A stretch of DNA of 64,000 nucleotides from positions 124,001 through 188,000 of the forward strand of contig WLWZ01000008.1 of NCBI GenBank assembly GCA_012103315.1, given 5' to 3'. This document shows positions 350-23,247 of the stretch, piece after piece. A program made the position numbers and the translations under genes. Every line of letters begins with the position of its first letter. Position 1 is the first letter of the stretch. This stretch comes from Alphaproteobacteria bacterium (GTDB lineage: Bacteria > Pseudomonadota > Alphaproteobacteria > MPNO01 > UBA2964). Below the pieces are notes generated by a model. That model had not been told where the DNA came from, did not search any database, and worked only from the letters and a program-made list of their open reading frames with translations.

Positions 350-2008
350 TCAAATGATGCCTAAGCCACGGATTTTATCTAGAACACCCAGGTCCTGAAG
401 TTTCCACATGACTTTACTTGCCCCAATGACCTCTACACCGACTAAAACGCTGAAAGCACCAAATAGGGATAGGCAAGCAAGTGAAAAACCTATGTTCCCA
501 CGAAGGCGTTTACGTTTTTCCAAGGGCGAAACAATCGTACTAATTTTACCGATGACCGGAACCGTAAATGTCTCTCTCAACTTTTGAATATTGGTGAACG
601 TCGTCTTAATCTGACTTAGTAAAAATGCGACTGATACCCCGACAATAAAACCCGCAAACAAAACAGCAACAAACATAACGGGTCGGTTCGGGCCCCTTGG
701 TTTAACAGGAAGTTTAGGAGGGTCGATAATTCGAAACTGTACTTTTTGCGCTTTGGTTTCTAAATCCCGAGCTAACTTAGCCGACTCCTGCCGTTGCCGA
801 AGTTCTTCATAACCTTTTTTAACAATGGCGTAGTCACGATTTAACTGAGCTAATTGGGCTTCCACTTGCGGGACAAGTTTCGCCATTTTTTCCCAGCGTT
901 CTACACCCTGTTTTTGTTTCTTCGCTCTATGTTTAAGAGCAGCCAACACGCCTTCTTGCTGGACAATTTGTAACTTCACCTTTTCATAAACCGGATTAGA
1001 AACCAGTTTTTTGTTTGGCGCAGCCACTGGTGGCTTGCTTTTATCAGGCCCCTCAATATTCGCCGCGGCCATTGCCTTACTTGCACCATCAAGCTTTTTC
1101 TGCAGCTCCGCTAGTCTCCGTTTCGTGCTAACGACGTCGGGGTGGTTCTCGGTATATTGGGTCAGCAGGGAATCAATTGTTTTTTGTAATTCCAAAATTC
1201 TGACATGATAATCTGAATCCGGTCCGATTGGTCCGCCGGAGGCCTGAAAGGACAAATTATCCTCTTTAGCCACCTCGAGATATTGTGGGACCTCCTTCAT
1301 CTGTTGGACAAGCTCATCGCGGATCATCGACGCTTCTTCAATTTGTCCTGTTGTCTCGGAGAATTTCTTCCGAACCACCTGCATATGCTCGTAATAATTA
1401 CGATCACCGGGAAGTAGCCCCATATTGTTGCGCTTAAACTTAGCGCGCTTACCTTCAGTCTCGATCAACTGTCGTTCATAGTCCCTGATTTGATCATCCA
1501 GGAAACTCCGTGTTGTTTCCATGTCCTTTCGACTGGCGCCAAGGTTTCCTTCGACAAAAATCTGCATGACAGCTTGAACAACACGCTTGGTAACACCGCG
1601 TTCAACATCTTCGTATGAGATCTGAAAAAGATTGCGGCCTTGTTGCTTTACACTGATCTTGGCCTTCAGCTCTTGGACGAGTTGTTCTTTGGCTTCGTCT
1701 CCCTTGATCTTAAGATCAAGGTCTGTCATCAGAATTATTTTCTCTAGGTTTGGGCGGCTCAACAATGTTCGCCGCATGATATCAATCTGTTGAAATAAAT
1801 TCATTTCAACAGCCAAACCCTTCATCAAAGGCCCGAGCATCGTATCCATATCAACATAAATTCTGGTGGACGCTTCGTAACGGTCAGGCAAATTGGATAC
1901 CATCATCCAACCCGCACCACTGATCGCCCACGCAGCAGCGATTACGTACCAGCGGCGACGCCAAATACCGTAAATATACCCAGAAATTTGTACAACAAGG
2001 TTGTTCAT
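350..2008 (-). CDS. XrtA-type polysaccharide chain length determinant (Wzz/PCP family)
   Basis: This is an inner-membrane polysaccharide co-polymerase that sets exopolysaccharide chain length and works with the export protein and autokinase. The 552 aa are longer than a simple Wzz. There is an N-terminal membrane segment (about 20-38), then YEASTRIYVD and a motif ending LMKGLAVE, typical of the exosortase-A-associated subgroup. A long charged periplasmic coiled-coil stretch (about 150-430) leads to a Pro-rich PRGPNRP motif. A second membrane segment (about 444-466) and a third (about 505-527) follow; the third is an extension beyond ordinary Wzz. The kinase part is not fused, consistent with a separate autokinase gene downstream. 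Confidence 0.88.
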   Translation of the reverse strand: MNNLVVQISGYIYGIWRRRWYVIAAAWAISGAGWMMVSNLPDRYEASTRIYVDMDTMLGPLMKGLAVEMNLFQQIDIMRRTLLSRPNLEKIILMTDLDLKIKGDEAKEQLVQELKAKISVKQQGRNLFQISYEDVERGVTKRVVQAVMQIFVEGNLGASRKDMETTRSFLDDQIRDYERQLIETEGKRAKFKRNNMGLLPGDRNYYEHMQVVRKKFSETTGQIEEASMIRDELVQQMKEVPQYLEVAKEDNLSFQASGGPIGPDSDYHVRILELQKTIDSLLTQYTENHPDVVSTKRRLAELQKKLDGASKAMAAANIEGPDKSKPPVAAPNKKLVSNPVYEKVKLQIVQQEGVLAALKHRAKKQKQGVERWEKMAKLVPQVEAQLAQLNRDYAIVKKGYEELRQRQESAKLARDLETKAQKVQFRIIDPPKLPVKPRGPNRPVMFVAVLFAGFIVGVSVAFLLSQIKTTFTNIQKLRETFTVPVIGKISTIVSPLEKRKRLRGNIGFSLACLSLFGAFSVLVGVEVIGASKVMWKLQDLGVLDKIRGLGII

Positions 2009-3125: not shown

Positions 3126-4988
3126 TCACCGAAGCGTCACTGATTGATGCTCTTGTAACCATAACTCTAACATCATCAAGACCCACACCAACTCTCCATG
3201 ATAAGAGGCATGTCCCGTCCTAGAGGCCTGGATCACTTCATCGATGAACTCTACCCGATATATTCCTCTATCCTTGAGAGAAAATAGGGCAGCGTGAGCC
3301 ACCTCTTGTAGCGGTCCATGTTCGCGAAGCCAATAGCCAAACGGGAGGCCAAACCCATGCTTGGATTTCGTCAATGTGGATTTTGGCAAGAAGTCCTTAA
3401 AGGCATCTTTAAAAAACGTGCGCAATTGTATACCGCGCATCATTTGCTTCGCAGGAATTTGAGCAGCGACTTTAACAACGTGGGGATCCAGGAGCGGAAA
3501 TCCAACGGCCACACCTGCGGTTTCACACATGCGGCCTACCTTTCGCAGGTCATCATCCGCCAGTATCACCTGTAAATCGACATGCATCATCCGATGCAAC
3601 AATGACTCAGATGACGTTCGGTCATACGCCTCTCGTAAAAGGTCAATGGGACCGTCAATATCTACGCGGGCCGCAAAATCGTCGTCAAACATCTCGGATG
3701 CTGAACGACCCGAATAATAATTGGCAGCTTCCATTCTTTCCGGCATCGCCATATTTGCCTGCTCAACATAGCTTCTTCCTTTGCGAAACAATGTAATTGA
3801 ATCGCGGAAGGGGGCGTGTTCCAGCCCTGGTTCGATCATCCCGTTCCTAATCCAACGGGGAATTCGCGTGTACAAATCTAGAATTTTTTGACGCCCGTAT
3901 CGGCTGTTACCGGCAAAGAGCTCATCCCCACCATCACCGGCAAGAAGCAGTTCAACGCCATGTTCGCGCGCTAGCTTCGCGCAATAATAGGAAGGAACGA
4001 CAGATGTATTCGCAAATGGTTCATCATATGTCTTGGGTAACATCGATATGAGGTCGACGACATCATCTGCCGTTACATAATATTCGTGACAATTAGCGCC
4101 GAAGTGGGCCGCAGCCATACGTGCGAAAGACATTTCGTCGTATCCATCGACATCGAAGCCCATGGTAAAGCATGAAGCGGGGCCATCCACACAAGCTGCA
4201 AGGGAACCAAGAATTGTCGAGCTATCAACTCCCCCACTCAGAAAGGCGCCAACCCGATCTTCAGCAACGGCGCCCCGCGACCGATTGGTCGCCGCACTGA
4301 CAGCTTCCCGCAGCTCTCGGGATACAGCCGTAGCATCTATTCTCGTCGCGTCGGTGTACGGCATATTCCAGTACCGGCCAACTTCTGTCGCACCGTGACT
4401 AAAATGAAGGTACTGCGCTGGTAACAATTTGTAGCAATTTTGATAGATCGTTTCAGGAGCAGGTATCCGCGTAAAATACATTAAGTCGTAAACTGCCTGG
4501 GCGTTGACCTTAGTATCCACACCCGGATAAACACCCAAGCAATCAGTCATCGTCGCAAAAACCAGTGATCCGTCCTCAGGCTCCGTAAAACACATCGCGC
4601 GAGACGCCATTCGATCAATGGCAATTAATGCTTCTGCCTGATTAGAATCTATGAGGGCGAATGAAATATTATCAACGACATCTATAAGATTGCGGCCTAA
4701 ATCTTGCCACGCTTTGGCAAGCGCCAGAGCTGTTCCCGTATCACTCGCTATAGACTGGTATTTTGGATCAAGCCAGATTGGCAGGCCCGTTGCGACAACG
4801 GACAGTCCACCATCTTCCATCGCGTCACATTCAATTGATGCACCGGCGATCGCTAAAGCGCTACATGACTTGGTCTGAATAAATTCAGCATCGACGTCTC
4901 GGCGTGCGCAACGTAACGCAGCCTTCATATTCGCAATGACATTTCGCGCCGAATCGGAACTTCCGATGCCGCCGACCCACCCGCACAA
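3126..4988 (-). CDS. Asparagine-synthetase-like amidotransferase with divergent glutaminase half
   Basis: The C-terminal half is a clear asparagine synthase domain: an SGGVDSS PP-loop for ATP, then YDEPFANTS and GDGGDELFAGNSRYG. The N-terminal half has the shape of a class II glutamine amidotransferase but lacks the usual RGPD and NGEIYN substrate-binding motifs. The start matters: class II enzymes need Cys directly after the initiator Met. The TTG at 4988 gives exactly Met-Cys-Gly-Trp and is chosen here; a TTG three codons upstream (4997) would bury the Cys. Length is about 620 aa, as in exosortase-associated amidotransferases. The position among exopolysaccharide genes suggests amidation of a sugar acid or another polymer-linked carboxylate rather than free asparagine synthesis. 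Whether the glutaminase works is uncertain. Confidence 0.78.
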   Translation of the reverse strand: MCGWVGGIGSSDSARNVIANMKAALRCARRDVDAEFIQTKSCSALAIAGASIECDAMEDGGLSVVATGLPIWLDPKYQSIASDTGTALALAKAWQDLGRNLIDVVDNISFALIDSNQAEALIAIDRMASRAMCFTEPEDGSLVFATMTDCLGVYPGVDTKVNAQAVYDLMYFTRIPAPETIYQNCYKLLPAQYLHFSHGATEVGRYWNMPYTDATRIDATAVSRELREAVSAATNRSRGAVAEDRVGAFLSGGVDSSTILGSLAACVDGPASCFTMGFDVDGYDEMSFARMAAAHFGANCHEYYVTADDVVDLISMLPKTYDEPFANTSVVPSYYCAKLAREHGVELLLAGDGGDELFAGNSRYGRQKILDLYTRIPRWIRNGMIEPGLEHAPFRDSITLFRKGRSYVEQANMAMPERMEAANYYSGRSASEMFDDDFAARVDIDGPIDLLREAYDRTSSESLLHRMMHVDLQVILADDDLRKVGRMCETAGVAVGFPLLDPHVVKVAAQIPAKQMMRGIQLRTFFKDAFKDFLPKSTLTKSKHGFGLPFGYWLREHGPLQEVAHAALFSLKDRGIYRVEFIDEVIQASRTGHASYHGELVWVLMMLELWLQEHQSVTLR

Positions 4989-5098
4989 TCCAGACAATTT
5001 ATTGAAATTCCATAATTTTTTGTGATCCGGCGTTAAAGTTTATAAATTTACACCGACTAATATGTCAATCTTTGGCGGATGGAGATCGCGTTATACTT

Positions 5099-9671: not shown

Positions 9672-11009
9672 CTACTTTTTGGCGTCGGCACGCAAAAACG
9701 ATTTCTTTGCCTGCGGTACGACAAAATCGTCTTCCTTTACCCCTTCAACAGGCGCCTCCACTAAGTCCTTTTTCAGTATTTCCTGCACAATCAGGCGGAG
9801 AATGATTGATAGGGCCGCGATGTGCCAGAATAGGTCATAATAGGCAAGGTTGAGAAATGCCCCGCCGGTGGCGTACCCAACAATACTGACCTGTATCATA
9901 GCGGCAAGGTCTCGTGCCCAAACCAAGTCTTCACGCACTCGAACGTTCCGGATCACCCATGAACATGAGAGAAATGCCACCAGAATACAGGACAAAAACA
10001 AAAGCAACCCGACGAAGCCGTGCATCGCCATTACCTGAAAGTAAATGCTATGGGCATTAACATGACGGTCTGGATTGGGCGCATATTTTCTGTACTGACT
10101 CACGTCATCATAAATCATGAAACCACCACCAAAAAAGGGATGATCAAGGGTAAATTTATAGGCGAAGGACCATGAATTGAGGCGCCCTATCGCCGAAGCA
10201 TCTTCCTCATACTCGCTAATGGTATCCATACGTTCGAACCAGGCGTCCGGCATAAAATTCAGCCCCGCCGTCGCGACAACAATGATGACAATAGCCGGCA
10301 ACACCTTGTTCTTGGATTTCAACCAAAGGAAGAGCGCCATCATACTCATAGCAATCAGAGCCCCACGTGAGTAAGAACTCAACGCCGAAATGATCATGAG
10401 AGGCATAGACACAAATAAACCGCGTTTAACCCATTTATGCATAGTATGCATGTGGAGATAACGCACCAACGGAACGACCATGATGGTCGCAACCGCTAAT
10501 GCGTTGTTCTCCTCAATTACAGATCCCGGTGGCCCAAACACTAGGAAATTCCCACCGGTCGCGAGGGAGAATGCCCCTCCCTTGACCGCAAAGAAGGCAA
10601 TGGAACCCGCTATCACCCAAATGAGCCAGTCCAGTTTCTTTTGTTCCTGTAGCATGACAACGGAAAGCAACGTTATGACCATCATTTTTATGACTTGTTG
10701 CAATTCTTTGAATGAGCCCGCGACGTCCGTCGCAAACACCGTAGAAATAGACATCCAAAGGGCAAAGGCCAGCATCAGAACCGTTCCGGGAGTCATCGGC
10801 AGTTTTTTGGGCTCTTTGGAAACAAGCCAAGCCCCAATGGTCAATACGCCGACAACCATCGCGAATGGAAACGAAAACGCGAACCCGTAAGAAAGACGGT
10901 GTGGGTTCATATAGGAGATCCAGGAATAAACATAGAGACCGATATACGGTCGCGTGCAAATGAAAGGCAAAGTTCCAAAGATCATCAGCGTGACGATTAA
11001 ACTTCGCAT
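9672..11009 (-). CDS. Exosortase-A-type O-glycosylation ligase / O-antigen ligase family membrane protein
   Basis: This 445-aa polytopic protein has about ten or more membrane segments and belongs to the Wzy/WaaL superfamily. The N-terminal RPYIGLYVYSWISYMNPHRLS is the hallmark of the subgroup found with exosortase A in exopolysaccharide loci. A large periplasmic loop with FFGGGFMIYDD and NPDRHVNAHSIYFQ carries the conserved H-x2-H/S-type catalytic region of the ligases. The C-terminal 35 residues are cytoplasmic and charged. It would polymerise or transfer the undecaprenyl-linked glycan at the periplasmic face. It heads a minus-strand gene order followed by the glycosyltransferase at 11056. 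Confidence 0.85.
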   Translation of the reverse strand: MRSLIVTLMIFGTLPFICTRPYIGLYVYSWISYMNPHRLSYGFAFSFPFAMVVGVLTIGAWLVSKEPKKLPMTPGTVLMLAFALWMSISTVFATDVAGSFKELQQVIKMMVITLLSVVMLQEQKKLDWLIWVIAGSIAFFAVKGGAFSLATGGNFLVFGPPGSVIEENNALAVATIMVVPLVRYLHMHTMHKWVKRGLFVSMPLMIISALSSYSRGALIAMSMMALFLWLKSKNKVLPAIVIIVVATAGLNFMPDAWFERMDTISEYEEDASAIGRLNSWSFAYKFTLDHPFFGGGFMIYDDVSQYRKYAPNPDRHVNAHSIYFQVMAMHGFVGLLLFLSCILVAFLSCSWVIRNVRVREDLVWARDLAAMIQVSIVGYATGGAFLNLAYYDLFWHIAALSIILRLIVQEILKKDLVEAPVEGVKEDDFVVPQAKKSFLRADAKK

Positions 11010-11055: not shown

Positions 11056-12111
11056 TTATCGAATATCACGCTTAAAAATCGGAAGCACCAAGCTTTTAAT
11101 AAACGCTTTCGCAAAGCTAACTGCAGGCACTGAGTATTTAGAAAGATTGTCATATCGATTTCTATACCTAATCACAGCCGGTCCCAGGACAATTGAGGAA
11201 GTAGCAACCGCAAGCCACCACACCTCTGACGCTTTGGCGAAAATCTGACTTTTGTCACCGGGTGATAACTCACGGCGTTCTACAAAACTGTCTACCATTT
11301 GGCGAAAAATATCACCGCCGCGCAGAAGATCCCCTCGGTGGCGACAGAATGACTTTTCCACCATTAAACACCAAATTATTTCCATATCTTTATCAGACAC
11401 GGAGTCTTCACCCATATATTCGTTATAGCGATCTCGTAAAAATGCTCGACCGTTTTCCGCCATTTCCTGTTTTCTCACGATGCTCGCATTTAGTCCGTGT
11501 TCGTTTATAGCGCCAAGGACATCTGGAAGAAGACGCATACTGCCAATTTCGCTAAGCCTGTGATAAAGGTCAAAATCTTCCGCACAATGATATTTGGCCC
11601 GATAGTCCAGCTCATTATCGATGATAACGCTGCGGCGAATCATAATAAAAGAATGTTGAATTATGGAACCGACAAAAAGGGACCAGGCCAATTCAATCGG
11701 TGTCGGGACCGGTAATGGTGGCACAGCAGGGCCACCTTTCGGCAAAATATCAATGCGTCCCGAGACGAGGACCAAAGACGAGTCCGCGTTCATGGCTTTT
11801 ACTTCCTTCGCTAGCCGATCCGGATAGCTGATATCGTCATGATCATGAGGGGCAATAAATTTGCCCCGCGCCAATGCCAGACCTCTATTTCGCGATCCAC
11901 TAATCCCCAATTTTTTTTCGTTCCGAACTAACCTAATGCGCGGGTCGTCAAATTGACGGATAATTTCGACAGTCCTATCCATCGATGCATCATCAATTAT
12001 AATAAGTTCAAAATCAGAGAACTCTTGGTTAAGCACGCTCCGCACCGCACCGGCGACAAATTTTTCGCCGTTATAGGTGGTCATGATCACGCTTACTAAA
12101 GGGTCATCCAT
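11056..12111 (-). CDS. Glycosyltransferase family 2
   Basis: A GT-A fold transferase of 351 aa. The nucleotide-binding start (VSVIMTTYNGEKFVAGAVRSV), DDAS at residues 40-43, the GISGSRNRGLALARG signature and the metal-binding HDHDD at residues 89-93 are all present. The acidic DxD therefore reads His-Asp-His-Asp-Asp. The C-terminal half (YHCAEDFDLYHRL) holds the ED catalytic base motif. It probably adds one sugar of the repeat unit at the cytoplasmic membrane face; donor and linkage cannot be told. It lies between the flippase and O-ligase genes on the same strand. Confidence 0.88.
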   Translation of the reverse strand: MDDPLVSVIMTTYNGEKFVAGAVRSVLNQEFSDFELIIIDDASMDRTVEIIRQFDDPRIRLVRNEKKLGISGSRNRGLALARGKFIAPHDHDDISYPDRLAKEVKAMNADSSLVLVSGRIDILPKGGPAVPPLPVPTPIELAWSLFVGSIIQHSFIMIRRSVIIDNELDYRAKYHCAEDFDLYHRLSEIGSMRLLPDVLGAINEHGLNASIVRKQEMAENGRAFLRDRYNEYMGEDSVSDKDMEIIWCLMVEKSFCRHRGDLLRGGDIFRQMVDSFVERRELSPGDKSQIFAKASEVWWLAVATSSIVLGPAVIRYRNRYDNLSKYSVPAVSFAKAFIKSLVLPIFKRDIR

Positions 12112-12148: not shown

Positions 12149-13633
12149 TCAACCATTCGCTTTCCGCCGTAAAAATTTCAAAACATACCCTACAACAACA
12201 TTCTCCGGGCCTTCGGGCCGTCCCTGCGCTATCCAAAGCAGAAAAAGACAGACCACGAAACTAACGACTCCGACCATTACATCCATCGCGAGGGTTAATG
12301 CGGGAATGTCAATTGCGCCGATATGAAAAAAACGCACTATGAAAAACATCGCAGCCCCCGCTACCAAAGGCCGCCAAGTCACGAAAATTATTCGACCAAA
12401 TGTTACTGGAACAACAGCTTTTAAGACAAGAAACATAAGCGGCAGAACAATTATGATCGCGACCAATCTACCAGCGGCGACACCTTTGACACCCCAATAA
12501 TGGCTGCCGATTAAAATAAACGTAACCAACACAGCGAGGTGTAAAACAGTTAAAAGAACGAATGGGCGAAACCGGTCCATCGCCATCATAACTGTTCCTA
12601 TTCCACTGGTAATGCTGAAGACGCCCGCATACATCACGAGAAAATCAAAGACAGGCTGGATATACAACCAACGCTCGCCGAGAAATACGTGGATTAGGTC
12701 ATGCGAAACCGCAACCATACCGAAACAGATAGACATACACAGCACAGAGACCATCCCTAGTACTTTAAGATAACTTTCAACCAAGCGTGGTGGGTCATCT
12801 ATCATTTTTACATAGCTCGGATATAGGCCTCTCGCCAGTGGCATAACCACCTCGTTCGCAGGCATCGTTCCCACGTAAGCCGAGATGTAGTATCCGCCCA
12901 TCGCCCGAGTACCGAACATCTTACCCACGATGAACTCGTCAATCCGATCAAGCGCAAAATGAACCACATGCCGGATCAATATCCAGACTGAAAAGGCCCA
13001 CAATTCTGTAAATTTGGACAGCGAAAGCTTTGGTCTAAATGGGTGTAGGAAGTAGCTCAGCAGGACGTCCATAATAGCACCACCGAGCAATCCAATAACG
13101 ATCGCCCAGTAATTCTCCAACCAAAAAGCGAGGGAAACTGTAAGCGTAAAGGACAGAATTTTCTTGCAAACCCCGAAACGGAATTCCTTCGCGAAGTCTA
13201 GTTCTTTCCTAAACGCGACTGTGCCAATATTCTCCATTCCGATTGCAACTGCTCGAAATGCCAGAAACTGGATGACCAAGACAACACGTGGCTCATCAAA
13301 GAAACCCCCTATAAATGGGGCCAAAAGAAACAGGATGGCCGTAAGAATCGCACCTTGAAGAATATTGATCGTCCAAGCGGTATCATAGAAATCCCGTGTC
13401 GGATCTTTCTTCTGAATAAGCGCAAGGTCGACACCGAGATAGGCAAACATTTCAGCGAACCCAACCACAATCATGGCCATCGCAATAATCCCGAAATCCT
13501 CTGGCACGAGTAACCGGGCAAGTATGGCTGTGCTGACAATTCCGATTAAACGCATACACCAACGCATAGCGAGCATCCAAACGGAGCCTCGAACCATGTG
13601 TTTTTCAAAATCTGGAGTTGTTGTATCAGTCAA
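12149..13633 (-). CDS. PST-family polysaccharide flippase (WzxC-like)
   Basis: It is a 494-aa integral membrane protein with about 12-14 predicted helices; it starts GSVWMLAMRWCMRLIG and contains ILARLLVPEDFGIIAMAMIVVGF, characteristic of the PST/WzxC flippases that move lipid-linked repeat units to the periplasm. FGTRAMGGYYISAYVGTMPANEV and the LARGLYPSY region are also typical. The reading frame opens with TTG (13633) without a strong ribosome binding site; ATG at codon 13 (13597) would still leave the first helix intact. It sits 37 bp from the glycosyltransferase gene and 36 bp from the pyruvyl transferase gene, suggesting one transcript. Confidence 0.87.
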   Translation of the reverse strand: MTDTTTPDFEKHMVRGSVWMLAMRWCMRLIGIVSTAILARLLVPEDFGIIAMAMIVVGFAEMFAYLGVDLALIQKKDPTRDFYDTAWTINILQGAILTAILFLLAPFIGGFFDEPRVVLVIQFLAFRAVAIGMENIGTVAFRKELDFAKEFRFGVCKKILSFTLTVSLAFWLENYWAIVIGLLGGAIMDVLLSYFLHPFRPKLSLSKFTELWAFSVWILIRHVVHFALDRIDEFIVGKMFGTRAMGGYYISAYVGTMPANEVVMPLARGLYPSYVKMIDDPPRLVESYLKVLGMVSVLCMSICFGMVAVSHDLIHVFLGERWLYIQPVFDFLVMYAGVFSITSGIGTVMMAMDRFRPFVLLTVLHLAVLVTFILIGSHYWGVKGVAAGRLVAIIIVLPLMFLVLKAVVPVTFGRIIFVTWRPLVAGAAMFFIVRFFHIGAIDIPALTLAMDVMVGVVSFVVCLFLLWIAQGRPEGPENVVVGYVLKFLRRKANG

Positions 13634-13669: not shown

Positions 13670-14878
13670 TTAAACTTCCGCAGCAATTGCGGCAGCAATA
13701 TTGTCGAAGTTATCCCTGGTAGCTGCCAATAACCGGTCACGATTTTCGTCCCGCGCTTCCTGAGGGATAGCCAATACCTTCTTAGATTGGGAAATCAGTT
13801 TCTCTATGCCAGTACATTGATCCTGACCTTCTATTTCCCACGATTCACGATAGTGTTGAAGTTTTATAACATCCTCCAGGCCAAGATGTGGCACAGAGTA
13901 TGATTCCGAAGTCACGGCACCATGTAGGCTAGTCCCAATAAACAAACTACTATTCGCAATTAGATGCATAATATCAAAGATACTAATGTTTGCCTTTGGC
14001 AGAATTGCATCGGACTTCATCAATCCACAAAGTTGCGTTAATCCGATATGGTCTTCATGTCCCTGTGCACGGCCAATTGGCAACAATAATGGCGTCGCAT
14101 TGATCTCTTCCGCCAAATCATCCAATACAACCGCCAATTCATCAATCCGTGAAGCTTGCCACCCATTCCACATCTGAAAACAAAAATATTTTTTTGGACG
14201 GTTGAGAAATTCGTTGGTCGATGGTTCTACGTGTTGGGTTAGCCACGTAATAGGAAATAGATCTGACATAACAACCGCTGAATCGGGAACGAGCTTGACG
14301 TTATCATTCTGATCCATTGGCGCCAGCAGGGACTTGGTTGCTTGATCGCGGACGGAAATATAGGAGGCACGCGACAACGCCAATATAATCTGATCACGTT
14401 CCATAACGGGTAGGCGCGCGAGATATGACCCACCGACGCTATTATAGATGACTTTCACCCCGGGTGGCAGATGATCTGGATCAATTATCCACGGCCAAGG
14501 CGAAGGTGACCCGAAACGGTAGCGGCTTAACTCATTTATAGCACGAACACCAAGAAATTTTGCTGCGTAATATAGAAGAGATGTCTTCAGTCCGACTGAT
14601 AAATTCATATTCATGGCGTGCCAAGATGAACCCAATACACCACCGCCAGCGACAATCACGGTACTTCCTTCTGGAACATAGCCGGGTTTAAACAGGGCCC
14701 GAATTGGCAAAGTCTTTACAGCGCCAAACTCGGAAAGATCAGATTCAACCAAAGCATGTGCCGCAAACTGCAAACTTGAATTGCGGGATCGTAGAGCTTT
14801 TTCGACAATTATCGGAAATAACAAATCACCGTAATTAAACCGGTCATAGGCACCGAGAAGAAAAATGGGTTTTGTCAT
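13670..14878 (-). CDS. Polysaccharide pyruvyl transferase family protein
   Basis: This 402-aa protein matches the CsaB/WcaK-type pyruvyl transferase family, which places pyruvate ketals on glycans using phosphoenolpyruvate. It shows the N-terminal LLGAYDRFNYGDLLFP motif (asparagine-tyrosine-glycine-aspartate is the family mark), VIVAGGGVLGSSW, VKVIYNSVGGSY, ISVRDQAT and the C-terminal SSLFIGTSLHGAVTSESYSVPHLGL. The last contains the conserved SLHG-type active-site histidine. Given its neighbours, it probably modifies the exopolysaccharide with an acidic pyruvyl group, though some family members have other donors. Confidence 0.86.
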   Translation of the reverse strand: MTKPIFLLGAYDRFNYGDLLFPIIVEKALRSRNSSLQFAAHALVESDLSEFGAVKTLPIRALFKPGYVPEGSTVIVAGGGVLGSSWHAMNMNLSVGLKTSLLYYAAKFLGVRAINELSRYRFGSPSPWPWIIDPDHLPPGVKVIYNSVGGSYLARLPVMERDQIILALSRASYISVRDQATKSLLAPMDQNDNVKLVPDSAVVMSDLFPITWLTQHVEPSTNEFLNRPKKYFCFQMWNGWQASRIDELAVVLDDLAEEINATPLLLPIGRAQGHEDHIGLTQLCGLMKSDAILPKANISIFDIMHLIANSSLFIGTSLHGAVTSESYSVPHLGLEDVIKLQHYRESWEIEGQDQCTGIEKLISQSKKVLAIPQEARDENRDRLLAATRDNFDNIAAAIAAEV

Positions 14879-14927: not shown

Positions 14928-15839
14928 TCACCCTCTCTCGCCCTCATCTGATATATCATCCAAAAAACCTGCAAGTTGGGTTTCCCAGCTGGGCAGTTTG
15001 ACACCAAATGTTCTCTCAAGCTTGCTGCTATTTAGAACAGAATAAGCGGGACGGCGTGCCGGTGTCGGATACCCGTCTGTCGAAATGGGCATAACAGCCT
15101 TGCATCGATAAGAGACACCTTGACTTTGGCGAGCAGCAAAATAGCGCGACGCAAAGCCATGCCAGCTGATCTCACCTGCTCCCGTCACATGATACGTTCC
15201 GGATTTTTCCCGATACAACTCAGGAGTATCCAACCCCATGCGAATAATGGACGCTGTCGCTTCCGCTAGCGACCGCGCGGACGTTGGTGTTCCGATCTGA
15301 TCATCAACAACCGTGACCTCGTCACACTCCAGGAACAAGCGTTCCATGGTTTGAAGGAAATTACGTCCATGTTGAGCGTAAATCCATGAAGTCCGAAATA
15401 TCAAATGGGCGGCGCCCGATTCCTGGATCGCAATTTCACCATCTCGTTTAGAACGTCCGTAGACATTAAGCGGAGCGGATTCGTCAGATTCCAAATAGGG
15501 TCGGTCAGAGAAACCATCAAATACAAAATCCGTTGAGTAGTGAATGAGTGGGATGCCCATCCGTTGCGCTTCATTTGCCAGAACGCCCGGCGCTATTGTG
15601 TTAATCTCGATTGCTTGCTGTTCTTCCTCCTCCGCCCTATCAACCGCCGTGTAAGCGGCGGCATTAACGATGAGGTTGGGGGCAACATTTCTAGTGACTG
15701 AAACCAAATTCTGCGGCGCCGAAAAGTCAGCCGTTTTCCGGTCTGGAACGACGACATCCACAATATCAGACAGTACCCGTCGCAATTTTAAGCCCAATTG
15801 ACCCGAGGCCCCGAGAAGTAAAACGGATTTTTTTGACAC
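14928..15839 (-). CDS. rfbD: dTDP-4-dehydrorhamnose reductase
   Basis: This is the final step of dTDP-L-rhamnose synthesis, NAD(P)H-dependent, cytoplasmic. The 303-aa SDR protein has LLLGASGQLG near the N-terminus, NAAAYTAVDRAEEE, HYSTDFVFDG, and the YGRSKRDGE catalytic Tyr-Lys pair; the C-terminal RPAYSVLNSSKLE is family-typical. The start is GTG at 15839, 5 bp after the rfbC stop, with no clear ribosome binding site, so translation is probably coupled to rfbC. It is the last gene of the rfbB-A-C-D run on the minus strand. Confidence 0.94.
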   Translation of the reverse strand: MSKKSVLLLGASGQLGLKLRRVLSDIVDVVVPDRKTADFSAPQNLVSVTRNVAPNLIVNAAAYTAVDRAEEEEQQAIEINTIAPGVLANEAQRMGIPLIHYSTDFVFDGFSDRPYLESDESAPLNVYGRSKRDGEIAIQESGAAHLIFRTSWIYAQHGRNFLQTMERLFLECDEVTVVDDQIGTPTSARSLAEATASIIRMGLDTPELYREKSGTYHVTGAGEISWHGFASRYFAARQSQGVSYRCKAVMPISTDGYPTPARRPAYSVLNSSKLERTFGVKLPSWETQLAGFLDDISDEGERG

Positions 15840-15844
15840 TGCGA

Positions 15845-16402
15845 TTAGCCGGGAAAATGCGGTAGGTCAGCGAGAGAAATATCTCGCAACTTATTGCCGC
15901 CTTTATCCTTCTCTGAAAGCGAAGGATTCTGTTCTGGCCAGACGATACCAATATCGGAATCGTCCCATGCAATCGTCATTTCATGTTCAGCGCTGTAAGG
16001 ATTGCTACATTTATAGGCGAAAAGAACAGTATCACTCAGGACATAAAAACCGTGGGCAAAACCCTTAGGGATGAATAGTTGATGTGCGTTCTCAGCGGTT
16101 AGCTCAGCTGCCACCCAGTTCCCGAAATTAGGCGAATTAACTCGAACGTCGACAGCAACGTCAAATACCGCGCCATGGACAACATAGACCAACTTGTCTT
16201 GTGCCATAGGCTCTTGAAGATGCAAGCCGCGCAGAACGCCTCGCGTAGACATTGAAAGATTATCCTGCACAAAATCGCAAGCGATGCCCGCATCTTGATA
16301 ACGAGAGGCTTGGAATGTTTCGAGGAAATAACCTCTGGCGTCCCCAATGACCCGCGGCTCGACCAAAAGAACGCCCGGTATCGTCGTCTCGGAAACCTTC
16401 AC
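15845..16402 (-). CDS. rfbC: dTDP-4-dehydrorhamnose 3,5-epimerase
   Basis: A small cupin-fold epimerase (185 aa, the usual family length). It has [15 protein letters not shown] near the start, [20 protein letters not shown] (the conserved catalytic His), [14 protein letters not shown], and [16 protein letters not shown]. The start is GTG, overlapping the rfbA stop by 4 bp (GTGA), a sign of tight translational coupling. It supplies the epimerised sugar to RfbD. Confidence 0.95.
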
Positions 16403-17283
16403 TCGTGCATTTCCTCAAGTAGGTTTTGGAGATAGCCACCATATTCGGATTTACCTTCTAAAGCGACCAACGCCTCCAACTCATCGAGACCGATATAGCC
16501 CTCCCGCAACGCAATTTCTTCAAGACAGGCAATTTTGAGCCCCTGCCTATCTTCAACGGTGGCTACGAAACTTGACGCCTGCATTAACGAACTATGCGTC
16601 CCTGTATCGATCCAAGCATCGCCACGTCCTAGGCGTTCAACCTTGAGGGCACCTCGATCAAGGTAAGATCGGTTTACATCAGTAATTTCTAATTCACCTC
16701 GTGCGCTGGGGTTCATTTGTTTGGCGATTTCTACGATGTCCCGATCATAGAAATATAATCCGGTAACGGCCCATTTCGACTCTGGTGTTGACGGCTTTTC
16801 TACGATCGACAGCGCGTTGCCGACATCATCAAACGACACGACGCCGTAACGTTCTGGATCACTCACACGAAAGGCCAACACCGTTGCCCCATTTTCCATG
16901 GACGCCCAGGATTTCAGACGTCCTGCCAGGTCATGTCCAAAGAAAATATTATCACCCAAGATCAGTGATACACCTTCACCAGCGATGAAGGACTCACCAA
17001 TTAGAAAAGCTTCTGCGATTCCCCGAGGCTCATCTTGAACAGCATAGACAATCGATATGCCCCATTGGCTGCCATCTCCAAGAAGGCGCTCAAACAACGG
17101 TGCATCATGAGGGGTAGAGATGACCAACGCTTCGTTTATTCCGGCCAACATTAGGACACTTAATGGGTAGTAGATCATCGGCTTGTCATAAACCGGGATA
17201 AGTTGCTTACTTATCGCCCGCGTAGCGGGATAAAGCCTCGTCCCGGAACCGCCTGCGAGAATAATCCCTTTCTTAATGGTCAT
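16399..17283 (-). CDS. rfbA: Glucose-1-phosphate thymidylyltransferase
   Basis: It makes dTDP-glucose from glucose 1-phosphate and dTTP. The 294 aa fit the long RmlA form. The N-terminal nucleotide-binding signature [17 protein letters not shown] is intact, followed by [18 protein letters not shown], then [30 protein letters not shown], and [23 protein letters not shown] near the C-terminus is also classic. ATG start; 31 bp downstream of rfbB. Confidence 0.96.
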
Positions 17284-17314
17284 AGTCGTTGCCTACTATT
17301 CTATGGTTGATTGA

Positions 17315-18376
17315 TTAACGGTCGAGACCACGTCGTTCACCGGCATACGCGCCACTCCTAACCCGCTCACACCAAATCCGGTTGTTAAGATACCACTCAA
17401 TCGTTTTACGCAATCCACTGTCCAGCTTCTCCGCTGGCGACCAACCAATGTCACGTTTTATCTTTGATGCATCAATAGCATAACGGAAATCATGGCCAGG
17501 ACGATCTTCAACAAATTTGATCAGATTTTCATATTTCCCCTGGCCGGACGGGTGCAGTTCATCCAAGAGACGGCAGATTGATCGGACGAGTGCGATATTC
17601 GACTGCTCAGCATCGCCACCGATATTATAGGTTTCACCCGGCTCTCCGTTTTGAAGTACGACACCGACGGCTCGGGCATGGTCATCAACGAACAGCCAAT
17701 CGCGGACATTTTCACCAGTGCCATAGACCGGTAACGATTGCCCCGCCAAAGCATTTTCTATGATCACTGGAATTAATTTCTCAGGGAACTGGTAAGGCCC
17801 ATAGTTATTAGAACAGTTGGTAATCATCACCGGTACGCCAAATGTGTGATGCCAAGCACGAGCAAGATGATCTGAGGAAGCCTTGCTGGCGGAATATGGG
17901 GAATTTGGGCTATACGGTGTTGTTTCGGTAAATTTTCCTTGACCACCAAGACTACCAAATACTTCATCCGTTGAAACATGGATAAAACGAAATTCGGCTC
18001 TTTTTGCCGGGTTGAAACCTGCAATCAAACTACGAGCCTCTTCGAGTAAGTTGTAGGTTCCGACTATATTGGTCTCAATAAAATCAGCTGGGGAATCGAT
18101 AGAACGATCAACATGCGATTCTGCTGCCAAATGAACGACCGCATCCGGCTGAATTTGCTGGACAGTAATGGCTAGCGATTTTCGATCCCGAATGTCAACT
18201 TTATGGAGGTGGTAATCGCCATCATCTGCGACCGCCGAAACGTTGTCGAGATTTCCGGCATAGGTAAGGCAATCAATATTGTGAACGGCAAAATTCAAAT
18301 CCCGTCGAAAATGTCTAACGACAGCAGATCCGATAAACCCGGCGCCCCCTGTAACAACTACATTTTTGATAACCAT
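17315..18376 (-). CDS. rfbB: dTDP-glucose 4,6-dehydratase
   Basis: An extended SDR enzyme (353 aa) that makes dTDP-4-keto-6-deoxyglucose. Motifs: [15 protein letters not shown] for [43 protein letters not shown] with the catalytic Tyr-Lys, and [14 protein letters not shown]. The N-terminal variant [11 protein letters not shown] is ordinary. It is the first gene of the rhamnose run (rfbB-A-C-D); the 127-bp gap upstream (18377-18503), which also follows the kelch/beta-helix gene, contains a small inverted repeat (GTATCA/TGATAC at 18465-18482) but no clear promoter. Confidence 0.96.
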
Positions 18377-18503: not shown

Positions 18504-20636
18504 CTATCGTAACTGAAAAGTGCCTGCTTCATGCCCCAAGTCTTTTGGCAAAGGGTGGGAGAGTCTCGGGATTTCGTTTTTCTCAAGTCCGGCAGCCGAT
18601 CGGCTATAGAACAGCTTATTCATATGCGAATAATTCCGAAAACTACCCCAATTTTGAATACCAACAATTCTATTGCCTCTTATTTTGGAGTTATATGGCC
18701 CTCGCCACTGGCCAAATTGGCCTTTTGGTCGATCAAAAATCAACCAGCTGTTAGTGAGAGAGAAAAACGTTTTTGGGTGAAGCTTGCCATAACAATTCTG
18801 TGGTTCAAGTCCGACCCCAAAACTCTCGTCATTGTCTGCGTGTGGGCCTTTTTGAATAACCACGCGATTTAATCGAATGACGCCCCCGCATGGCATATCA
18901 CCTTCGCGGGAATTTCTGCTTCCCAATCCGAGTAAATAGGAATCAGAAATTTCAGTTGTTCGGGCACGACTTTTGACAATATGCCCGAAATAGTGGGATC
19001 GCCGGAGGGTAGACCGCACAATACGTAGTTTGTCGATGTACCCCGCATAAATTAGATGCATGGGCTCCCTACCACGCTTATGCCCAATATCTTCAACTAT
19101 TGTGTCTTCAACTATAAGAGTACCGCCTCTATTATCTGTCAAAATTCCCATCTCGGCATTGGCAATATGAGCGTGCCTAACGCGCACGTTAAAATTCTTA
19201 CCTTCGATTTTTAAGCCGGCGCAGTTGCCGCATCGAGCACGGAATGTTGTCCGAAAATTGTCAACGGTTACTGGCCCAACAGCGTTCTGAATCAACAGAA
19301 CACTCTTTCCCTTAGTCGTGCCAAGTATGCGAACCCCCTTTAGATCGAGCTTCATAGATTTGTTGACTACGGCGCCGGGGCGATAAATGCCAGGCGGCAC
19401 AACAACAGCAGATTCTGCCGACGCGCGATCAAGAATCGATTGAATTGAGTTAGTCTCAACAATCGTCCCTTTCAACTTCTTTGGATGACGGTAAACCCAC
19501 GCCCCGATTTTATGATCCGCATATCCTACATAGACATCAAATTTAGGAACCCGGACCCACTTTGAGTATACGCCGAATCCATAACGTGGCCCCTGCATGC
19601 CCCAATCAAATACACGCCAATCCCGGGTCTGTGGATCGTAGGTATGTATCAGGTCGGAACCGTTCCAGAAAATGAGTTTGTTGTCCCGCATCATCGCAAG
19701 TCCGCTATAGCCACTGACGCCGGCACCGGGGACAGAGTGTTTTATTCCACTTTTTGGCGGTTTCGTAAAAAGAAGTCCCGAACGATGTATTGACCAAATT
19801 CCGTCGCGGGATGCGTCATAGATTGAATTGCCATGCCGATAGTTGGGCCGGGACCCGATACGATTCCAGGTGCCGTCTTTTTCATTCAAAATCGCTTCAA
19901 CAATATCGCTACCAACGTAAATACTACCGTCTTTGTATTGAGCAGTTCTATAGGACCTCCGTTTCATCCATTGGGGCATGGGCGCCCGCTGCCGCCAGGA
20001 TAATGGGGCAAGCCCATTCCGCCTTTCGGTTTGCGAAGGGTTGAATTCCCAAATCGCACGTTTTGGGTAAAAACGGCCACGCCGGCATGAATACACGGAT
20101 GGAAACACCAATATGGTTCTTGTGGTTTTTGAAAATATTATTCCATCAAAAGTGCGCGACGACGGGGGGCCATTTCTGGGCACCAAACAAGTTACACCCT
20201 TCCTCGCCGCAAGAAGAGGAGGTGGGTCCGTCAATCGCGTCCATCGACCGCGCATGAGATCAAGTTCATAAACCTCGTTCCCGCCATAGTCTGTCGAACC
20301 ACCACCATGGAAATACATTTTCAGATCTATAGAATCGAATGCCGCCCCATTTAGAGCACGGATGACACTGCTTGGCCCTGTGGCCATACGAATTTTCTGT
20401 GATAAAGACTTAGGGAAGATGTCACTAATGGACGCACCATCCATATGACACCAGCCACCATCGCGGCGATCCAGTTCTTTAGAGCAATCTATAAGTGTTT
20501 TCCGGCTACGGACTTCCCTTACGTCGATTGGTTCATCGGGTTTTATTTCTGCTTGCGCCCATGAACTCTGAGAGAAAATTGGAACCAATGCAGCACTGGT
20601 CAAAAGAATGGTGCCAATTGAAACGATACGCCACAT
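18504..20636 (-). CDS. Secreted kelch-like propeller plus parallel beta-helix protein
   Basis: This 710-aa protein has a cleavable signal peptide (about residues 1-28, ending SSWAQA). Residues about 100-380 contain repeated propeller-like blades (NEVYELDLMRGRWTRL, AIWEFNPSQ, then DLIHTYDPQTRDWRVFDWG), as in kelch or galactose-oxidase-like domains. From about 400 on, VVVPPGIYRPGAVVNKSMKLDLKGVRI starts a right-handed beta-helix with recurring short strands (LKIEGKNFNVRVRHAHIAN, LIVEDTIVEDIG, LRIVRSTLRRSHYFGHI). It carries several Cys (CGNCAG and others). Beta-helix proteins at such loci are often polysaccharide lyases, epimerases or binding proteins; no catalytic set could be fixed, so function is unknown beyond a likely polysaccharide-facing role. 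Confidence 0.7.
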   Translation of the reverse strand: MWRIVSIGTILLTSAALVPIFSQSSWAQAEIKPDEPIDVREVRSRKTLIDCSKELDRRDGGWCHMDGASISDIFPKSLSQKIRMATGPSSVIRALNGAAFDSIDLKMYFHGGGSTDYGGNEVYELDLMRGRWTRLTDPPPLLAARKGVTCLVPRNGPPSSRTFDGIIFSKTTRTILVFPSVYSCRRGRFYPKRAIWEFNPSQTERRNGLAPLSWRQRAPMPQWMKRRSYRTAQYKDGSIYVGSDIVEAILNEKDGTWNRIGSRPNYRHGNSIYDASRDGIWSIHRSGLLFTKPPKSGIKHSVPGAGVSGYSGLAMMRDNKLIFWNGSDLIHTYDPQTRDWRVFDWGMQGPRYGFGVYSKWVRVPKFDVYVGYADHKIGAWVYRHPKKLKGTIVETNSIQSILDRASAESAVVVPPGIYRPGAVVNKSMKLDLKGVRILGTTKGKSVLLIQNAVGPVTVDNFRTTFRARCGNCAGLKIEGKNFNVRVRHAHIANAEMGILTDNRGGTLIVEDTIVEDIGHKRGREPMHLIYAGYIDKLRIVRSTLRRSHYFGHIVKSRARTTEISDSYLLGLGSRNSREGDMPCGGVIRLNRVVIQKGPHADNDESFGVGLEPQNCYGKLHPKTFFSLTNSWLIFDRPKGQFGQWRGPYNSKIRGNRIVGIQNWGSFRNYSHMNKLFYSRSAAGLEKNEIPRLSHPLPKDLGHEAGTFQLR

Positions 20637-20702: not shown

Positions 20703-21683
20703 TCAAACGCCCTCATATGATTTAAACCAATCAACAAATTTGGGAACACCACTATCGATTGGCGTCGTTGGTTCATAGCCGAGATCTGTCCTAATTGCCT
20801 CAATATCAGCGAAACTCTCTTTGACATCGCCAGGCTGCATCGGTTGGAAATCGATCATAGCCTTTTTGCCCAACGCTTCTTCAATAAGCCCAATCATCCG
20901 CATTAGCGGTTCGCTGCGATGATTGCCAATATTGTATAAACGACATGGTGCTTGCCCATCTATGGATACAGGCGGGTTGTCGAGAGACGCGATCACGCCC
21001 GCGACGATATCATCGATATATGTGAAATCGCGTTTCATGTCCCCATTATTAAATACCGGGATCGTACGCCCTTCAGAGATCGCCTTACAAAAAATATACA
21101 TGGCCATATCCGGTCGACCCCAAGGACCATATACCGTAAAAAACCTCAGCCCTGTCTGCGGGAAGCCGTAGAGATGTCCATAACAATGGCTCATCAGCTC
21201 GTCCGCCTTCTTGGTCGCCGCATAAAGAGAAACCGGCGTATCGGTTCGATCATCAACGGAAAATGGCAGCTTGGTGTTTCCGCCATAGACAGAGCTCGAA
21301 CTCGCATAGACGAGATGCTCAAAATTCGGTTGATTCCGGCAAATTTCAAGAATGGCCATGTGTCCTACGAGATTTGCCTGGACATAGGCAAATGGGTTTT
21401 CGATAGAATATCTGACCCCTGCCTGGGCGGCGAGGTGCACGACACGCCGTAAATCTCCAGCACCAGCGACGACAGTTTTCATCGTTTCGAGATCAGAAAT
21501 ATCAACTCGATGAAACGTAAATCCGTTATGTTTTTGAAGCCGTTCAAGACGAGCCTCTTTCAAATGTACGTCGTAGTAATCGTTGACGATATCGACGCCG
21601 ACAACCTCTTCACCACGTGCCAATAAAGTTTCGCTCACATGGTATCCGATAAACCCGGCGGCACCGGTTACAAGAATGGGCAT
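20703..21683 (-). CDS. NAD-dependent epimerase, UDP-glucuronate 4-epimerase type
   Basis: An extended SDR protein of 326 aa. It opens ILVTGAAGFIGYHVSETLL with VDIVNDYYDVHLKEARLERL, the signature of the UDP-glucuronate/UDP-galacturonate 4-epimerases. HLAAQAGVRYSIENP, YASSSSVYGGNTKLPF, YAATKKADELMSH (catalytic Tyr-Lys) and RFFTVYGPWGRPDMA follow. It would provide galacturonic acid for the exopolysaccharide, which fits an acidic, pyruvylated, rhamnose-containing polymer. The exact substrate is inferred from family similarity. Confidence 0.88.
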   Translation of the reverse strand: MPILVTGAAGFIGYHVSETLLARGEEVVGVDIVNDYYDVHLKEARLERLQKHNGFTFHRVDISDLETMKTVVAGAGDLRRVVHLAAQAGVRYSIENPFAYVQANLVGHMAILEICRNQPNFEHLVYASSSSVYGGNTKLPFSVDDRTDTPVSLYAATKKADELMSHCYGHLYGFPQTGLRFFTVYGPWGRPDMAMYIFCKAISEGRTIPVFNNGDMKRDFTYIDDIVAGVIASLDNPPVSIDGQAPCRLYNIGNHRSEPLMRMIGLIEEALGKKAMIDFQPMQPGDVKESFADIEAIRTDLGYEPTTPIDSGVPKFVDWFKSYEGV

Positions 21684-21779: not shown

Positions 21780-22928
21780 TTATCCCTCTGAACCCAATAG
21801 GTTACGGGCTGTTTTCAACTCCCATACGGCGTTATGAAATTGTCGCCCACGACGCCAGTAGGCGCAAACCGCATTCGCGACTTCGATAGAAATTCCCAGA
21901 AATACATCCTGAAAAGAAGTTGGGTCACTGGCAGTTTCCATGAAAATACATCGCGAAGAAGTGTTGGTCACCTGGTAAATATGAAGCGCATCGTCCATAG
22001 AAAGACCAACTGTCCTGACGAGTACCGCCAAGCCAACGCCTCCCGTTTCAAATACTAGACGTCGGATAAGGCGGTTTTCGACACTGGTTAGTTGAGCGAT
22101 CCCCGCTTCGAACAGCAGAAAGTCGCCATTCCTGAATATCGCCGCGAGCGCGTCGGGATTCAAATACCCCGCTTCCTGCAACGCCTCCACGACGACGACC
22201 GGCGTTGAACATTTTGGGGTGCTGGAGTTTGCGATTACTTCTATCGCCGCCTTTTCGATATAACCGTCAACAGCTGAATTAGTCGCGTCGAGCTGATCAA
22301 CAATAAGATGTCTCAACGCCGCGGCAACCAACCAAATCAGCTCAATTTTTATATCTGGGTCGAGGTCTTTAGAACACAAGAGTGGATTATCAAATCCATC
22401 CACATACCCCCCGCGACCATGACGCCGCCTTTCGAGAAGCAGGCTGAGCGAAGGGTTTCCTGCAATTCCCAGGACCTCACAAAGGTTCTCTGTTTTCTCT
22501 GAAAGCGATCCTGCGCTATCAATTCGGGCAGCAGATTGCAGCTCCTTCTCGGTATTAAAAATACAAAGCCGCATAACGGCTTCTTCGACAGCACAACACC
22601 CGTTTAACGAACGGGCGTTGACTAGAAAATCAAAAACTTGAGCGGCGCGCTCCGAGGACAATTCTTTCAACGCGGTTCCATCAGGATCGTGCTCAGCAGC
22701 AATGATAGGAAGACAAGTTTGTAGGTTGATCGTTAGATCAAATATCAACTGCCGAAGCATCTGCAGAAGTGATGCGCGATCACGATCAGAAAGGGCTCCC
22801 TGTTCGCCACCTAACAGCGATTTAGTGACGGATGAAAATACGTGACCGTTTTCCACAGCTTTATTTGCGGCATGTCTTTGGACAGTACTAACTGTCCACT
22901 CCTCTGCGTTCGGTTCAGTTCTCTTCAT
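21780..22928 (-). CDS. DUF2336 domain protein
   Basis: An alpha-helical soluble protein of 382 aa, without signal peptide or membrane segment. The C-terminal half resembles the DUF2336 family common in Alphaproteobacteria: LAAIFRNGDFLLFEAGIAQLT, RRLVFETGGVGLAVLVRTVGLS, and VFLGISIEVANAVCAYWRRG. Function is unknown. The start was moved to the ATG at 22928, which has GAGAAG at normal spacing; the upstream GTG at 22937 lies inside that ribosome binding site. It stands at the boundary between the exopolysaccharide locus and the metabolic genes and may not belong to either. Confidence 0.72.
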   Translation of the reverse strand: MKRTEPNAEEWTVSTVQRHAANKAVENGHVFSSVTKSLLGGEQGALSDRDRASLLQMLRQLIFDLTINLQTCLPIIAAEHDPDGTALKELSSERAAQVFDFLVNARSLNGCCAVEEAVMRLCIFNTEKELQSAARIDSAGSLSEKTENLCEVLGIAGNPSLSLLLERRRHGRGGYVDGFDNPLLCSKDLDPDIKIELIWLVAAALRHLIVDQLDATNSAVDGYIEKAAIEVIANSSTPKCSTPVVVVEALQEAGYLNPDALAAIFRNGDFLLFEAGIAQLTSVENRLIRRLVFETGGVGLAVLVRTVGLSMDDALHIYQVTNTSSRCIFMETASDPTSFQDVFLGISIEVANAVCAYWRRGRQFHNAVWELKTARNLLGSEG

Positions 22929-23247
22929 CGCTAACACTTCTCATCTACGCGGAACCATTGAGGCACCGTGTCGTCGCCAATATCTATCGCGTATTCAAAA
23001 TTCGACTTGCCGTACAAGAGCAATTGTCAGCTCTAACGGAGTCTTTAACGCCAACACGTTATCAAAAATTAGTTAAATTTCTTTATTCGCAAGCCGTGCT
23101 GGGATTGCTATCATCCGAGACTAATAATGCTCTAACAAATAGGCAACTATAGCGATAGTTATCTTTAATTTTTTCGTATTTTTTCTACTATTCCGACCGC
23201 TCTAAAGCAGGCCAAGAGCGGCCGATGACTTTCGCAATCAATTTTAG
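22929..23247. other. Intergenic region without supported genes
   Basis: About 320 bp lie between the DUF2336 start and the stop of the LLM oxidoreductase. It should hold the DUF2336 promoter. A 7-bp inverted repeat (CCGCTCT / AGAGCGG, 23197-23221) follows the LLM stop, but neither strand has a U-run, so a terminator is not supported. Nothing else stands out. Confidence 0.5.

Follow-up and report, generated by a model that had tools for sequence, protein, structure and literature searches.

A two-module protein, predicted propeller and beta-helix, encoded in an exosortase-A exopolysaccharide locus

The window analysed here is a stretch of alphaproteobacterial DNA of 64,000 nucleotides. Positions 18504-20636 of its minus strand are filled exactly by an ATG-initiated open reading frame of 710 codons, and the ORFs on the opposite strand are short. 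Two genes from sister genomes match it. One, 62% identical, spans residues 1-570 of the 710-residue protein, and the second spans residues 1-700, but in pieces. The ORF is therefore a real coding gene. It is part of a run of minus-strand genes, in the order epimerase, 710-codon gene, rmlB, rmlA, rmlC, rmlD, pyruvyl transferase, flippase, glycosyltransferase and O-ligase. The features are as follows.

18504..20636, minus strand: whole gene, 710 codons, with a signal-peptide-like start, a predicted Kelch propeller and a right-handed beta-helix (ORF and models)
20553..20636, minus strand: signal-peptide-like N-terminus, residues 1-28 (judged by eye)
19479..20474, minus strand: predicted Kelch-type propeller, residues 55-386 (full-length model, VIA match to 9mey_B)
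20295..20297, minus strand: Ser114 (TCG), at a site that is His in 18 of 19 relatives (GGGHxDYxGNE motif)
20154..20156, minus strand: Arg161 (CGC), at a site that is His in 18 of 19 relatives (HTY/HSY motif)
18537..19442, minus strand: predicted right-handed parallel beta-helix, about residues 399-700, the last 70 residues modelled poorly (model and VIA)
19056..19058, minus strand: invariant His527, HxxY motif (family alignment)
18981..18983, minus strand: invariant His552, GHxxKSRA motif (family alignment)
18972..18974, minus strand: invariant Lys555, GHxxKSRA motif (family alignment)
18831..18833, minus strand: invariant Asn602 (family alignment)
20703..21683, minus strand: NAD-dependent sugar-nucleotide epimerase, UDP-uronate 4-epimerase-like by eye, upstream, 66 bases from the 710-codon gene
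14928..18376, minus strand: rmlB, rmlA, rmlC and rmlD, dTDP-L-rhamnose synthesis (rmlD by Pfam; rmlA, rmlB and rmlC by eye)
13670..14878, minus strand: polysaccharide pyruvyl transferase (PF04230, E 6e-18)
12149..13633, minus strand: Wzx-type flippase (PF13440, E 2e-72)
11056..12111, minus strand: family-2 glycosyltransferase
9672..11009, minus strand: XrtA-system O-ligase/polymerase-like protein TIGR03097 (480.9 bits, cut-off 188.1)
350..2008, minus strand: XrtA-system polysaccharide chain-length determinant TIGR03007 (487.2 bits, cut-off 278.85)

The rmlB gene starts 127 bases past the 710-codon gene. A scan of the minus strand found no promoter-like site, and the terminator-like sites were not clearly above shuffles; the spacing of the genes suggests that the run may be an operon. 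The pyruvyl transferase agrees with the initial annotation, which had placed the protein in an exopolysaccharide locus with pyruvylated sugars. For the galacturonate-type sugars, which were also proposed, the epimerase at 20703-21683 is present, but it reaches no curated cut-off and survives where the rest of the cassette has gone. It is therefore an unsure guide to the polymer.

Exosortase A is encoded just beyond the window, together with nine more XrtA-system families, namely the PrsK kinase, glycosyltransferases TIGR03013 and TIGR03087, an amidotransferase, FemAB, a deacetylase, an ATPase, the TIGR03016 outer-membrane protein and a tyrosine autokinase; all ten of the proteins scanned are over their cut-offs. 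The 710-codon gene is an accessory gene in what is a complete exopolysaccharide locus of the exosortase-A (XrtA) type. According to a published study (PMC9850573), loci of the XrtA/PEP-CTERM kind contribute to floc formation in some bacteria. Elsewhere in the window, positions 3126-4997 encode a second XrtA amidotransferase-like protein (290 bits, cut-off 816.9), the canonical copy being L078:7975-9894, and positions 49310-51685 encode a bifunctional FO synthase, CofGH (1145 bits, cut-off 1018), which points to coenzyme F420 synthesis here.

The start of the 710-residue protein, MWRIVSIGTILLTSAALVPIFSQSSWAQA, resembles a Sec signal peptide when judged by eye, in line with the secretion proposed in the initial annotation, and from this sequence we infer export to the periplasm or cell surface. 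The protein was rejected as a PEP-CTERM sorted substrate: the PEP tripeptide is absent from its C-terminus, and there is no hydrophobic C-terminal stretch (no 15-residue segment within the final 45 residues exceeds a hydropathy of -0.22).

The full-length model, generated from a 15-row alignment, has a mean pLDDT of 72.7 and a pTM of 0.72, and its N-terminal half is all-beta. When compared by VIA with solved Kelch domains, modelled residues 55-385 match LZTR1 (9mey_B) with Z 23.4 and an rmsd of 3.0 over 273 aligned residues. The Pfam Kelch scores are weak (PF24681, E 0.0016, 18.2 against a gathering threshold of 50 bits; PF13415, E 0.0041, 17.7 against 22 bits; PF13418, 13.3 against 21.6 bits). 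The N-terminal half is thus predicted to belong to the Kelch propellers at fold level only, every Pfam Kelch score being under gathering. The C-terminal half modelled alone, from a 6-row alignment, has a pLDDT of 70 overall and a pTM of 0.76, with pLDDT blocks of 56 to 94 over the first 250 residues and a poor model for the last 70. Its best VIA match is the alginate lyase 6kfn (Z 21.4, rmsd 2.7, 231 aligned), and the 50 matches listed all have Z of at least 19.0. Further matches are to phage tailspikes, a PL6 lyase, a polygalacturonase (Z 19.5) and the adhesin PfbA (3zpp, Z 19.6). Pfam Beta_helix scores 12.7 bits on this protein, against a gathering threshold of 25.9, and the model gives good support to a right-handed parallel beta-helix of the pectate-lyase-like superfamily. 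Structure prediction therefore gave both of the folds that the initial annotation had described in one protein. Searches with the 710-residue protein gave no PHROGs match and, by sequence, no PDB match, and a BFVD search with the beta-helix half returned generic tail-spike and pectate-lyase names only.

The whole protein was matched in 26 of 385 genomes of the same class. In 25 of these the match is through the beta-helix half, mostly to proteins without a propeller, and in one (G234) it is through the propeller half only. A search of plasmids with the whole protein likewise gave beta-helix matches only, in two records. Pfam Beta_helix matches 23 of the 27 family members with an E-value of 0.001 or better. 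His527, His552, Lys555 and Asn602 are invariant in all 27 rows of the family alignment, and in 29 of 29 when two viral rows are added, while Asn471, Ala473, Gly497, Tyr530, Gly551, Ser556 and Ala558 are near-invariant. The beta-helix half belongs to an unnamed family with an invariant residue set, and this polar set is a candidate for the conserved site that had been anticipated in one or other half. The spacing of His527 and Tyr530 is the same as that of His552 and Lys555, and the two pairs are 25 residues apart, about one coil, so that they may be stacked on one face of the helix. A stand-alone member of the family, L044:7904-9370 in genome G344, has a C-terminal part that looks winged-helix-like by eye.

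The conserved residues gave no sequence match to lyase, hydrolase or epimerase families. A PDB profile search with the family alignment (A11) had one match, to the PL6 entry 7dmk (E 0.003), which covers only profile positions 12-111 of 247; PL6 lyases have a catalytic Lys/Arg region. In Foldseek the best E-value for the beta-helix half is 0.0066, and the epimerase AlgE4 (2pyg) is at rank 7 with E 0.022. Mannuronan C5-epimerases (AlgE/AlgG) have a catalytic Tyr/Asp/His/Lys arrangement. Lyases, hydrolases, tailspikes and an adhesin all lie within about 2.4 Z in the VIA comparison, and the beta-helix fold therefore names the superfamily and no reaction. In view of this narrow spread among the top VIA matches and of the Foldseek E-value, the beta-helix was not assigned to PL6, fucoidan lyase, AlgE or polygalacturonase, and a family outside the matches listed may also apply.

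The distribution of the protein is tied to that of the XrtA system. Of the 385 genomes, 38 have TIGR03097 above its cut-off. It is present in 21 of the 26 matched genomes against 17 of the other 359 (Fisher p 7e-20), with neither in 342; when the genus of the window is removed the counts are 19 with both, 4 with the match only, 17 with the ligase only and 342 with neither (p 1e-18), and both p-values overstate independence because the genomes are related. The link is imperfect, in that five matched genomes (G005, G019, G023, G381 and G387) have no TIGR03097 over cut-off, and 17 genomes have TIGR03097 without the beta-helix family. Ten of the 21 genomes with both have them on one shared contig, 2.6 to 188 kb apart and in nine cases within 54 kb. 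In the remaining 11 they are on different contigs, and all of these assemblies have at least 100 contigs. The fused homologue of G344, described below, is encoded close to TIGR03007, TIGR03019 and TIGR03097 proteins.

The propeller family is rarer than the beta-helix family, being found in 8 of the 385 same-class genomes, 2 of 398 genomes of the phylum and 10 viral-contig loci; propeller searches of plasmids and of phages gave no match. There are 19 relatives with a readable motif (G315, on L077, is a profile match in which the motif was not found, and was left out). At the first conserved His the sole exception among them is L013, and at the second it is G387 (ESY). The window copy has replaced both, with Ser114 and Arg161. 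The second His is common in Kelch motifs generally and may have a structural role. Comparison of the sequences suggests that the window propeller may have changed or partly lost its function. The replacement of both family-conserved His in the window copy weakens the earlier idea that the propeller holds a second active site. In another genome of the phylum (G479) the propeller heads a 1524-residue protein, L046:8237-12811, with repeated extracellular-type domains, as judged by eye.

On the basis of these observations we hypothesise, at roughly even probability, that the 710-residue protein is exported and acts on the exopolysaccharide of its own XrtA locus, with the beta-helix cutting or tailoring the polymer and the propeller binding glycan; export, catalysis, substrate and propeller role are all presumed. 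Once in the periplasm or at the cell surface, the protein would meet the exopolysaccharide made by the locus. The beta-helix would be the working part, and a putative groove with His527, His552, Lys555 and Asn602, together with Tyr530 and Arg557, would cut or modify the chain. Trimming or remodelling of the polymer by a depolymerase, either a lyase or a hydrolase, would be its most likely action, an epimerase being less likely, and the Kelch propeller would be a glycan-binding or docking module that keeps the polymer close to the helix. A uronic acid in the polymer would permit a lyase, and the upstream epimerase hints at one, but from below cut-off. The initial annotation was right on the anatomy of the protein, and the function it suggested, tailoring of the polymer, is plausible. 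The XrtA locus, the altered propeller motif and the phage-like match to the architecture are additions to it.

Non-catalytic beta-helices exist, and it is conceivable, if fairly unlikely, that the protein is a non-catalytic factor in assembly, export or matrix structure, with both halves binding polymer and the conserved residues binding sugar or metal. There are weak NosD-type matches (NCBIfam, 21.1 bits; PF05048 in 18 of 29 family members, with E up to 1), the beta-helix adhesin PfbA scores level with the enzymes, and the propeller resembles a binding module. However, the NosD score is far under the cut-off of 300 bits, so that the NosD family (TIGR04247) was rejected, and the His/His/Lys/Asn set, invariant in every row, would seem more like an active site than a scaffold.

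Within the genus, the 710-codon gene shares the fate of the polymer cassette. It is found in three of nine genomes, four of the nine being less than 75% complete. G000, the genome of the window, has an undamaged copy; that of G005 is truncated after residue 570, and that of G011 is disrupted by a frame change together with an in-frame stop codon. G000 is also the only genome with an undamaged flippase, which is broken in G011 and was not found in the remaining seven. The 710-codon gene is thus undamaged only in the genome that also has a working-length flippase gene. The G011 cassette (L002:10001-18903) is decaying: only a remnant of rmlB is left, and the breaks extend to rmlA, the flippase, the glycosyltransferase and the 710-codon gene. 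The luciferase-like, TPP-enzyme, epimerase and O-ligase genes of G011 align in one piece, with one in-frame TAG in the O-ligase match region, and the breaks are therefore not general sequence error. Error in the sequences of these metagenome-assembled genomes (MAGs) may lie behind the breaks in G005 and G011.

Between the window copy and its sisters, dN is 0.24-0.29 in the two domains, each of which has a saturated dS; the neighbouring epimerase gives a dN of 0.06-0.09. In the tree, the stem branch of the beta-helix of the window and L002 is very long, at 3.25 changes per column. The gene might therefore be a declining remnant in the genus, a former polymer enzyme under relaxed constraint, whose window copy has yet to be inactivated. 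The broken sister copies, the high dN and the loss of both propeller His all fit this reading, which we nevertheless regard as unlikely: the window copy reads through all 710 codons and keeps all four beta-helix invariants, the whole G011 cassette (rmlB, rmlA, wzx and GT2) is broken, so that the decay may concern the polymer and not the gene, and the sister breaks may be sequence error, as noted. On the preferred reading, that of a polymer-tailoring protein, activity in the source strain may be reduced or changed, since the propeller has lost two His, the stem branch is long and both sister genes are broken. It is worth adding that the DUF2336 gene at 21780-22937, beside the polysaccharide cassette, is fast-changing, with 37-45% identity to the sister copies; near it, the epimerase, luciferase-like and TPP-enzyme proteins are 87-95% identical to their sisters, and DUF6537 is 69-78% identical.

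The joining of propeller and beta-helix has recurred, and is found in the window lineage, in G344 and in L072. In G344 both modules are in one 873-residue ORF, with 31% identity over residues 58-684. L072 is a phage-like viral contig, with a 779-residue ORF in which a propeller is followed by a linker, Fn3-like by eye, and then a beta-helix, in the same order as in the window. The beta-helix of this ORF carries AHNVYIG and GHTLKSRA, and a nearby ORF matches a tail fibre (E 4e-7). A single clade for the fused beta-helices was rejected (lnL 51 lower, p-AU 0.0002) in a tree of 27 of the 29 rows of A11, two rows of less than 150 residues having been dropped; support for most of the deep branches of this tree is weak. 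That the two modules have been joined repeatedly suggests that they work together. Two further viral-contig proteins (L064:1736-5323 and L065:497-5650) have the same propeller family behind a different beta-helix, in reverse order; they were rejected as the same module pair, since the A1 profile misses their beta-helix. A search of viral contigs with the whole 710-residue protein gave no match.

The architecture had been called new. No paper on the combination of a Kelch propeller and a beta-helix was found in the literature: the excerpt of PMC1569441 contains neither "kelch" nor "lyase", its "helix" being a transmembrane helix, and that of PMC9850573 contains neither "helix" nor "kelch". The architecture is however not unique to the strain, being found also in G344 and in L072. 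The shared module order, close to a tail-fibre match, and the presence of the propeller family on other viral contigs raise the idea of a captured phage tail depolymerase, retained by chance or as phage defence. We consider this very unlikely, because the beta-helix family is widespread among cellular XrtA genomes, the beta-helices of L072 and of the window do not fall together in the tree, and transfer from host to phage fits equally well.

Galactose oxidase has copper ligands and a Tyr-Cys cross-link in its propeller. That the propeller is the enzyme, with a galactose-oxidase-like or metal-dependent site, and the beta-helix a stalk, is the least probable reading: galactose oxidase 9g43 is among the Foldseek matches (rank 15) and the HxDYxGNE loop is conserved in the family, but this is a fold match only, the best scores are to Kelch domains of eukaryotic binding proteins, and Ser and Arg replace the two conserved His in the window copy, so that a galactose-oxidase reading was set aside.

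A wider proposal, which is possible but on the doubtful side, is that the HxDYxGNE Kelch propeller and the GHxxKSRA beta-helix form a reusable glycan machine joined more than once, with which XrtA loci would tailor their own polymer and phages would penetrate it. In that case the beta-helix would represent a new family of carbohydrate-active proteins linked to exosortase-A loci; the polymers of such loci have been little characterised. To our knowledge, enzymes that process the polymers of XrtA loci have been little studied, and a beta-helix family that has invariant residues and is statistically tied to such loci provides a concrete gene to test. If the 710-residue protein cuts the polymer, it would be a tool for dissolving and analysing such exopolysaccharides, and the phage-like homologue suggests a route by which phages pass them.

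Comparison with known systems supports the individual parts. The N-terminal half has the fold of Kelch propellers such as LZTR1, MKLN1, KLHDC2/3 and the plant specifier proteins (Z 20.5-23.4), but is only 11-19% identical to the solved examples, falls below the Pfam Kelch cut-offs and has the HxDYxGNE signature. The alginate lyase PsAly of Paenibacillus FPU-7 (6kfn) uses Tyr184 and Lys221 (PMC6796002), and the window family has the near-invariant Tyr530 and the invariant Lys555; PsAly has no sequence match with the 710-residue protein. The two pairs were not equated, because interpolation over the aligned range fits the Tyr but leaves Lys555 about ten residues short of Lys221. RbmB of Vibrio cholerae, a polysaccharide lyase predicted to fold as a beta-helix, cleaves Vibrio polysaccharide (PMC11637428) and so acts on the exopolysaccharide of its own organism. 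The beta-helix half matches it by VIA (9ozd, 9ozl; Z 19.6, 248 aligned, rmsd 4.7), although there is no significant sequence match. VexL (6fi2; Z 19.4, 240 aligned, rmsd 3.4) is also a beta-helix, and according to its PDB title is a periplasmic capsule depolymerase of a surface-polymer export system; unlike the present protein, it comes from an ABC-transporter capsule system. We know of no propeller in RbmB or in VexL. WceF of Pantoea stewartii is a stewartan hydrolase of an exopolysaccharide locus, with a trimeric, tailspike-like beta-helix (PMC7949094). Like the predicted beta-helix half described here, it is a right-handed beta-helix encoded within an exopolysaccharide cluster, with a fold common to phage tailspikes; the differences are that WceF is a trimer from another kind of locus, and that the abstract mentions no Kelch propeller for it. 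A beta-helix enzyme that works on the polymer of its own organism is of a known kind, as in WceF, RbmB and VexL, while the propeller-beta-helix architecture and the link to XrtA look new.
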